A stretch of DNA of 64,000 bases from Branchiostoma floridae (Eukaryota > Chordata > Leptocardii > Amphioxiformes > Branchiostomatidae), in the NCBI RefSeq assembly GCF_000003815.2, contig NC_049993.1, forward strand, positions 13,677,526 to 13,741,525, written 5' to 3'. Within the stretch, counting starts at the first letter, position 1; the number at the start of each line of letters is the position of its first letter. The position numbers and the translations under genes were made by a program. The notes under the pieces were generated by a model. It saw only the letters and a program-made list of their open reading frames with translations, searched no databases and had not been told where the DNA came from. Below are positions 37,301-63,724 of the stretch, piece by piece.

Positions 37301-40300
37301 AATCCCCGCGAAATTAAATGCATTTACAGTATTCTAGAAATTCCTTCTATCACAACAAGGAATTTGGTTGTTTTTGGAATGTGGACAGCCTGAGTTGTGG
37401 GTGAGTTGTGTCTGATTATGGGCCCCTTGAGGCTTTTTATGGTACCGCAGTAAAATTTCTCTTTTTTGGGAAGTCATGTTTTGATGTTAAAATGTACGTA
37501 CTGATGTTTTACATTGTGTTATTGGAGTTAATTCATTGAAATGTCTTTTTCCTATTACCATAGGTGTTTGACCCGGACGTAAACTTTCACGTGAAAAACC
37601 GCAGTCGCCCGGCAGAACGCTTGCACTGGGCGTCCGTGTTTGGAGAGGGTAAAACGTACGCCATCAGTCCGGCCTACGCGACCGGCTGCGACCCCTGCGG
37701 TTGGCTGGTGAACCTCGTCAACAGGTGGGGGGAGAAAGGCGGCTTCCAGCAGCTGTTCGGAGACGAGAGCCAGGTGCTGTGCTGGAGTGAGGAGGAACTG
37801 GCAGCAGCCTTGAGGCCTGTAGCCTGTGCTGCCCCCTATCTGAACCACAATGTACTGCAGCCACTGTTAAAACCACCCATGGAGCTGGCACATACAAAAC
37901 TGCAAAGTCTTCTAACTGATGACCTTAGGAGTAAAGTAAGTCTGAATTGAGAATTTTCATGTAGTGGTATCACTGTGTCTGCCAACATATTTGTGTCCCT
38001 TGTTGCATTTTCGTGAATCATTGCTCAAGAATTTTCAGACCTCTAGACTTTGATAAAGATGGTCTTACCAAAATAATGACTATTGAATGTCTATAACATA
38101 AAGAAGAGAATAAATAAATCATCGTCATATCTTGTGAAGAAAATTTAAAAGGAAAACTTTTATGGATAAAACACAAAAATGCTTTACATTGATTGAAATG
38201 CAAATAGGGACGCCAACCTGACAGTCAGTACTTGCCTGTTTTGTTGATATGAAAATTAAAAGCAGTGAAAATTGTCCTAATTTTTTATAAGGGCACTGAT
38301 TGGTCCTTTCACCCAAAACACCTTTTATCCACTTGCAGGAGAGCCTATTGCCATCAAACGAGCGGTCCAAAACCGATTCCTTAATTTCCTCATTAACTGA
38401 CGTCATCACCAAAAGGTTTGAATGTACAGTTCCTCAAACGGGTAACAGAAGTGACCAAAAGAGCGAACTACTACCCGGATGGTACCCAGGCTAGGTTACT
38501 ACCGACACACTGTCAGCTCCCATGATAAGGATATGGGGCCTTTAAATGTACCTTTACCATACCTACAAACTGATAAGTTCCTATCCCTTCCTGTACAGGA
38601 CCTGGGAGGCAGCTGGTCCCTGCTCATGTGTATGCGGCAGCTGGTGTACCACCTGTGGGTGGACCAGGTGGAAGCCGTGAACCAGCTGACCCTCAAGGTG
38701 CTCATCACCTGCCTCAAGTCGCAGCACTACGGCCCCAAGATGGCGGCGCTGCGGCAGCTGGGAGAGCTGATCGAGCAAAGCAGCGGGACCAATGGTCGCA
38801 CCAACGGGCTGGACCAACAACACCTGCTGTGCTGGCTACAGGAGAACAGCGTGCTGAAATATGCACTGGAGGGGAGCATACATCAGGTAATACATACATC
38901 AGGTAATACATGTACTAAACTATAGGAGAACAGTGTGCTGTAATATGCTCTGGAGGGGAGCATACATCAGGTAATACATGTACTAAACTAGACCAACAGC
39001 ACCTGTTGTGCTGGCTACAGGAGAACTGTGTGCTGAAATATGCACTGGAGGGAAGCATACATCAGGTAATACATATACTTAACTAGACCAGCATACATCA
39101 GGTAATACATGTAACAGCACCTGTTGTGCTGGTTACAGGAGAACAGTGTGCTGAATTATGCACTGGAGGGGAGCATACATCAGGTAATACATGTACTAAA
39201 CTAGACCAACAGCACCTGTTGTGCTGGCTACAGGAGAACTGTGTGCTGAAATATGCACTGGAGGGAAGCATACATCAGGTAATACATATACTTAACTAGA
39301 CCAGCATACATCAGGTAATACATGTAACAGCACCTGTTGTGCTGGTTACAGGAGAACAGTGTGCTGAAATATGCACTGGAGGGGAGCATACATCAGGTAA
39401 TACATGTACTAAACTAGACCAACAGCACCTGTTGTGCTGGCTACAGGAGAACTGTGTGCTGAAATATGCACTGGAGGGGAGCATACATCAGGTAATACAT
39501 GTACTAAACTAGACCAAACACAGTGTGCTGAAATATGCTCTGGAGGGGAGCATACATCAGGTGATACATGTACTAAACTAGACCAAACACAGTGTGCTGA
39601 AATATGCTCTGGAGGGGAGCATACATCAGGTGATACATGTACTAAACTAGACCAGGCTACAGGAGAACAGTGTGCTGAAATATGCACTGGAGGGGAGCAT
39701 ACATCAGGTAATACATGTACTAAACTAGACCAATAGCACCTGCTGTGCTGGTTACAAGAAGAAGAAGAAGAAGAAGAACTTTATTGCACGACAACTGTAG
39801 AGGATACAGTGTTTGGCAACTTGAACATACAATACATACAGAACAGAACACTACATGAGTTACTAGTATCTAAAAATCTAAGAGACTAATCTATTTTACA
39901 CATGGTATATAATATTTACAATCAGGCTATCATTATGTGCTGGTTCATGATAGTATAATATCGTCACGTTTTTTAAATGAGTTATATATAAATTGACCGA
40001 CATAGGCAGATATATCAGCAGGACATGATAGTAACATATTGAACATTTCTGTCTTGGTAAGTGGTAACATAGTATCAGATTTGCATTTAATAGACTGTAA
40101 CATTTTTTGTCTCTCTCTATCATAAGTTGGACAATCCATTATAAAGTGGGATTCATTTTCAATATTATCATGGCATGTTGGACACAGTCTCTCACTGGCT
40201 GGTGTGTTGTGATGTCTACCCTTTTCAATTTGTAGGGAGTGGGCACTAATTCTTAGTTTCGTAATGATATTTCTAAAGGATTTGTTTTGAACAGTTGAAA

Positions 40301-63724: not shown

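Follow-up and report, generated by a model that had tools for sequence, protein, structure and literature searches.

The USP24 gene of the lancelet Branchiostoma floridae raises the question of how many splice junctions of a single gene have come to be covered by tandem arrays that include the splice sites themselves, which of the redundant sites are used, and whether such arrays are peculiar to this gene. The stretch analysed here (hereafter, the window) consists of 64,000 nucleotides, positions 13677526-13741525 of contig C15, in an assembly of 513,431,437 bases.

The USP24 gene and its junction-spanning arrays

In a hand-built model, coding exons 1-35 of USP24 and their introns occupy positions 34091..63724 of the window on the plus strand, and exons 36-41 are located in the adjoining 10 kb (stretch L028). 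All 35 exons in the window are followed by GT, all except the first are preceded by AG, and the corresponding translation of 2123 aa contains zero stops; the full model of 41 coding exons (35 in the window and 6 in L028) yields an unbroken translation of 2458 aa that includes the UBA and UCH catalytic domains of Pfam. The best protein matches are the annotated USP24 of a Branchiostoma floridae hybrid (P0001) and USP24 of B. lanceolatum (P0002, 97%), which identifies the gene as a cephalochordate one, an attribute by which the amphioxus 'mirages' discussed below are recognized. P0001 matches the window model at 2114/2123 residues without gaps and is identical to the full model, position by position, at 2446/2458 residues. 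The hand model reproduced the exon numbering of a preliminary description of this DNA. A second annotated USP24 product of B. lanceolatum (P0003) contains no residues of exons 8 and 9 and is missing those from the beginning of exon 10; in the window, these exons are located at 44165-46230, and exon 9 there bears a donor array.

Junctions were scanned with a query of 30 exon and 20 intron bases against the intron adjoining each of them, the null being the same query against 40 stretches of other introns; score thresholds varied between runs (12, 18 or 22). In the window, the scan covered 90 junctions and 45 introns of four genes, namely USP24, DGKQ, a PM20D2-like gene and a TLCD4-like gene. The seven top-ranking junctions are precisely the seven for which the preliminary description had reported arrays in USP24, with scores between 23 and 50 where the null reaches 9 to 14 at most, which rules out chance matches; the next in rank, the exon 2 acceptor of DGKQ, scores 14.0 against 11.0. 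When the full USP24 model was scanned, nine of the 80 internal junctions stood out and the tenth scored 10.5 against 10.0. Thus, all seven arrays originally described are real but their tally was incomplete, the acceptors of exons 37 and 39 being the additions. Tandem Repeats Finder (TRF) lists six of the seven window arrays (exons 6, 9, 12, 15, 30 and 33); the exon 22 pair, which is absent from the TRF list, was found by alignment.

At each of the nine junctions (9/80), tandem copies are present in the junction's own intron and the unit takes in part of the exon, the splice site and part of the intron, as in the definition of a mirage. Both boundary types are hit, with three donors (exons 6, 9 and 12) and six acceptors (exons 15, 22, 30, 33, 37 and 39). 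The exon 6 donor array, on the plus strand as are the other window arrays, consists of a left part (38812..39759), with the authentic CAG/GT at 38886/38887 (here and below, the slash in a motif marks the junction) and 12 spare CAG/GT donors, and a right part (40774..41620) with 11 more, to a total of 23 spare donors with intact GT, one of them located 16 bp downstream of the authentic site. The units are about 95 bp long, with derivatives of 69, 118 and 213 bp. The two parts are divided by an insertion of about 1 kb (39760..40773, no strand assigned) whose minus strand carries an open frame of 275 aa. This frame has no Pfam match at E 0.1, and the insertion presumably resembles the end of a non-LTR retrotransposon. 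The exon 9 donor array (45436..45593) contains three 53 bp units, with the authentic donor at 45473/45474 and 2 spares, and the exon 12 donor array (48143..48806) is built of 77 bp units, with the authentic donor at 48169/48170 and 6 spares, along with three shorter pieces, spaced by about 48 bp, that lack the exon part.

Among the acceptors, exon 15 has three 105 bp units (49743..50059; authentic site before 50005; 2 spares), and the decayed pair of exon 22 (53868..54182; authentic site before 54093; 1 spare) consists of copies offset by 159 bp and identical at 68/80 positions. The exon 30 array (59689..59891) includes four 50 bp units, with the authentic acceptor before 59856 and 3 spares. 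The start of this exon (59841-59861) reads CCCAG/GTGAGA, such that every copy of the array combines a 3' splice site with a donor-like sequence immediately after it, which is the layout of a recursive splice site. The decayed exon 33 array (61452..62015; authentic site before 61971) consists of units of about 95-105 bp, with 5 spare copies of which 4 keep the AG. Just outside the window, in L028, the exon 37 acceptor has units of about 100 bp and two spares, and the exon 39 acceptor has a 58 bp unit plus a copy 612 bp upstream (2 spares).

The measured unit lengths (53, 77, 50, about 95, 105 and 159 bp) differ as had been reported for the seven window arrays, and these differences, along with those in age, support the independent origin of the arrays. 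Alignment of the copies also bears out the described range from near-identical (exons 9 and 30) to decayed (exons 22 and 33): identity is 100% in exons 9 and 30 and goes down to 75% (49/65) for one exon 33 copy. In the exon 6 and exon 12 arrays, the spares have changes in common that are absent from the authentic copy, as read off the copies themselves. This pattern is expected if homogenisation skips the edge of an array, suggesting that homogenisation might occur among the spare copies. When segments of the exon 6 array and of the exon 12 array were searched against the genome, they matched the USP24 locus only, at the sensitivity of the search, so that for these two arrays a dispersed repeat was rejected as the source of the unit.

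Choice among redundant splice sites

The annotated proteins point to the copies that are used. P0001 is the protein that results from splicing at the exon-proximal copies, gap-free across the seven window junctions, and it agrees position by position with the model through exons 37 and 39 as well. In P0002, length differences are confined to residues 390 and 1624, which do not coincide with any of the seven window junctions. It is the exon-proximal copy that the annotated protein contains, and the same would apply to the RNA. Relative to this protein, the spare copies lie in the intron at all nine junctions, in accord with the preliminary description. Use of a spare site would introduce a premature stop for 44 of the 45 copies tested, a set without the +16 copy of exon 6; the sole exception, located 105 bp upstream at exon 15, is in frame, stop-free and adds 35 residues.

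With a weight matrix derived from the other splice sites of USP24, the spare sites score about the same as the authentic sites in exons 6, 9, 12 and 30 and below them in exons 22 and 33; exon 15 has both equal and lower scores. Given the similar scores in exons 6, 9, 12 and 30, some mis-splicing is expected. Exon definition, whereby the copy that gives a short exon wins, would explain the exon-proximal use. With spare sites that rival the real ones in score at several junctions, up to 23 extra donors at a single junction, and the exon-proximal site used according to the annotated protein, USP24 is a ready-made test of exon definition. The arrays also carry a warning for genome annotation, in that the spare copies resemble real exon ends.

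Arrays in other genes and along USP24

Within the window, the location of all seven arrays in USP24 does not reach significance (P = 0.12 by introns and 0.13 by junctions), given that 34 of the 45 introns tested belong to this gene; this P value of 0.12 rules out inferring a concentration in USP24 from the window alone. The earlier statement that none of the other three genes shows such arrays stands in part. The single intron of the DGKQ model contains tandem arrays (9698-10391, rows of 49 and 136 bp) whose sequence continues into the 3' splice site of that intron, so that an intron array does reach a splice site in this gene, but the copied exon part is marginal at best. A DGKQ query of 20 intron and 30 exon bases scores 19.5 and beats all 200 shuffles (maximum 15.0); the exon sequence alone scores 8.0 (p 0.75), and the anchored score of 4.0 is reached by 3.7% of 400 random AG sites, compared with 10-19 for the decayed USP24 copies in the same test. 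With the exon-alone test null and the anchored test marginal, DGKQ was left uncounted. The names PM20D2 and TLCD4 for the two remaining genes are our assumption: a Pfam search of three PM20D2-like pieces produced no match, and in the TLCD4-like gene a TLC domain was detected below the Pfam cut-off in one of two pieces.

Two samples from elsewhere in the genome were compared with USP24. From a list of 62 UCH matches, six 10-kb stretches (L029-L034) were picked for having two or more such matches close together; they contain 42 predicted exons and 84 junctions, 2 of which are positive, a count that missed or wrong exon edges would lower. Both positives are donors. In L032, where the exons match USP47 best, a diverged copy 140 bp on keeps GT and a further copy 292 bp on has GC in place of GT; in L031, where the exons match USP9X best, a copy 121 bp on reads TAG/GTAAGG. 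The second sample is a fixed-position control that consists of 19 stretches of 10 kb at 3.0 Mb on contigs C1-C19 (17-35 Mb each), with 62 predicted exons, 122 junctions and 11 rows scoring at least 18, of which 2 were kept and 9 dropped. The kept cases are a GON-domain gene in L022, with a copy 111 bp on and only 8 exon bases matched, and, less surely, L010 (no Pfam match), with 50 bp units and 8 exon bases. Among the dropped rows, three belong to L016, where the predicted exons fall within an array, four to L012, where exons recur at intervals along the stretch and were taken as tandem gene copies, one to L018, which is the antisense of a coding repeat that stays in frame, and one to L027, which involves exon sequence only. 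Junction-spanning copies are found also in USP47-like L032, USP9X-like L031 and the GON-domain gene of L022, and confinement to one gene is not supported.

The exon predictor behind these counts is crude. Training on the three window genes other than USP24 led to 23 predictions for the 35 exons of USP24, all of which overlap true exons and 17 of which are exact, along with 10 antisense calls; the version applied to the controls, for which all four genes served as the training set, gave 16 antisense calls. In L018, 51-bp tandem arrays (7729-8389 and 3978-4179) are located within predicted coding exons and encode a 17-residue repeat, which indicates that arrays can sit within exons when they are in frame. 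The exons near these coding arrays are, we presume, lectin-like.

USP24 does look richer in junction arrays than the comparison genes, and this is partly supported by the counts: 9/80 junctions versus 2/106 (84 junctions of the other USP stretches and 22 other junctions of the window; Fisher P = 0.010, uncorrected), P = 0.029 against the 84 other USP junctions alone, and P = 0.032 with DGKQ counted (9/80 versus 3/106), all of these P values being optimistic inasmuch as USP24 was selected for looking extreme.

The arrays of USP24 also straddle junctions more often than expected. In the window part of the gene, 7/10 arrays do so, compared with an expectation of 1.2 under uniform placement (P = 1e-5) or 1.4 when exon-internal placements are disallowed (P = 3e-5); for the whole gene, the respective numbers under uniform placement are 9/12 and 1.55 (P = 4e-7). 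These counts involve hand merges: the exon 6 array, with its left and right parts, was counted once, and so were the rows at 44695-45136 (TRF's own count for the window part is 11 merged rows). In the whole-gene and comparison tests predicted exons wholly inside arrays were dropped. In the fixed-position stretches, 1/18 arrays is at a junction (expected 0.27-0.34, P = 0.24-0.29), and in the six other USP stretches the numbers are 0/2 with TRF on the plus strand (expected 0.25) and 1/3 on the gene strand (expected 0.50, P = 0.43). USP24 has 0.37 TRF rows per kb, compared with 0.095 for the fixed-position stretches and 0.117 for the remainder of the window. The junction bias is so far a property of USP24, and possibly a selection effect.

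Several array regions in USP24 do not involve junctions. Intron 7 contains a DNA transposon-like region of about 1.6 kb (42385-43965) bounded by 48-bp inverted repeats that are 96% complementary, and two 32-bp arrays are located just inside the ends of this element. Besides these two, the only intron-only TRF region in the window part of the gene is a diverged array of 41-50 bp units in intron 8 (44695-45136) that reaches no splice junction.

Origin of the arrays and comparison with known systems

With a probability of roughly 0.85, we interpret the USP24 arrays as mirages, that is, products of tandem duplication of a junction-spanning segment which are tolerated, grow, shrink, become homogenised and decay, with no function needed. 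The process would start when a short stretch of 50-160 bp that by chance includes an exon/intron junction is duplicated in tandem. The duplication would be tolerated inasmuch as the spliceosome still joins the exon-proximal copy, and every extra copy, along with its exon piece and splice site, would be removed as intron, in line with the annotated protein and presumably at the RNA level. The array could then grow, shrink and be homogenised via slippage or unequal exchange, wholly exonic arrays would survive only where the reading frame permits, and point mutations in old arrays would generate the observed range of identity. USP24 would thus be a many-intron gene in a genome where the process hits several genes, in which nine arrays have accumulated. 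Simple tolerance leaves the junction bias of USP24 unaccounted for.

A bias of this kind would follow if tandem duplication in amphioxus had true hot spots at splice junctions, owing to a mechanism tied to junctions, for example, transcription- or splicing-linked breakage, with USP24 as the clearest case. The excess of junction-straddling arrays in this gene (9/12 where 1.55 are expected) fits such a mechanism, as does the assignment of the two 32-bp arrays to transposon ends, which leaves a single other intron-only array region in the gene. However, the bias was not reproduced in the fixed-position stretches (1/18) or in the other USP stretches (0/2 or 1/3), and USP24 was chosen for looking extreme, so that we consider junction hot spots unlikely. 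It is similarly doubtful that junctions are favoured for tandem duplication in lancelets in such a way that the genome keeps making redundant splice sites, with USP24, at about six times chance, as the strongest case. If hot spots do exist, USP24 could be a natural experiment on exon-proximal choice among near-identical sites. A genome-wide count would show whether junctions are hot spots and how frequently introns grow this way.

Several array units contain AG/GT, and a study of amphioxus globins proposes that mirages can lead to new introns (PMC3087553), which could make the arrays an early stage of intron gain, through duplication in tandem of segments that contain AGGT. This is very unlikely for USP24, where intron sequence is part of the units, the junction they cover already exists, the protein is unchanged, and there is no extra exon in P0001 and no inserted exon in the window part of P0002. 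Still less probable is a regulatory role of the spare sites, such as the production of NMD-targeted USP24 transcripts or the tuning of splicing rate: 44/45 of the tested spares lead to a premature stop and many score like the real site, but the nine arrays differ in unit length, position and age, nothing suggests a common function, and similar structures are found in further genes, among them the unrelated GON-domain gene. The least probable of all is misassembly or over-expansion of the copies by the assembler, even with the near-identity of the exon 9 and exon 30 copies and a single assembly as the source; the decayed arrays of exons 22 and 33 and the exon 6 array, with its internal variants and 1 kb insertion, speak against an artefact, and so does a lancelet precedent, the PGBD5 array case, which was confirmed by re-sequencing (PMC3902484).

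The preferred reading, mirages, connects USP24 to a body of previous work. In amphioxus, minisatellite-like tandem repeats across exon/intron boundaries have been named mirages; in the sections of the globin paper that we draw on, their units are 10-72 bp long in Adh3 and 150-160 bp in globins, and they occur at both 5' and 3' boundaries, with many spare AG/GT sites and normal splicing intact (PMC3087553). The same source reports, for the Adh3 mirages, somatic instability, with length variation that is both somatic and between haplotypes (Canestro et al., 2002), presents the model in which mirages can give new introns, and cites two further reports whose titles name the retinol dehydrogenase and presenilin genes (PMC3087553). 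Lancelet PGBD5 contains arrays of 60 bp and 108 bp units at or overlapping splice sites, the copy number of which varies between assemblies, and the portion of that paper we use also mentions troponin C (PMC3902484). With mirages already published and two arrays present in PGBD5, the earlier claim that recurrence in one gene is undescribed can be maintained at most for the number of arrays. The implication is that mirages, known since 2002 from reports on individual genes, can be dense in one gene and recur in a small sample of genes.

The model of tandem genomic duplication, in which an exonic segment bearing AGGT is duplicated and becomes an intron (PMC3443670), shares with USP24 the local duplication of AG/GT. 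As far as this source describes the model, the unit is exonic and a new intron results, whereas in USP24 existing introns are lengthened and no new one is seen; an exonic unit with an AGGT pair bounding a new intron was not found in USP24, where the units are intron-containing and span existing junctions. Compared with PGBD5, as presented in the part of the paper considered here, USP24 has nine arrays instead of two, and two of the PGBD5 repeats were annotated as exon and then left out by the authors, which is not the case for USP24 in P0001. On the features tested, and so far as the published accounts seen here go, the USP24 arrays are alike in anatomy to the mirages of Adh3 and globins and differ from them in number, with nine arrays in the gene and up to 23 spare donors per junction. 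The USP24 arrays belong to the known class of mirages, and what remains new is their density.
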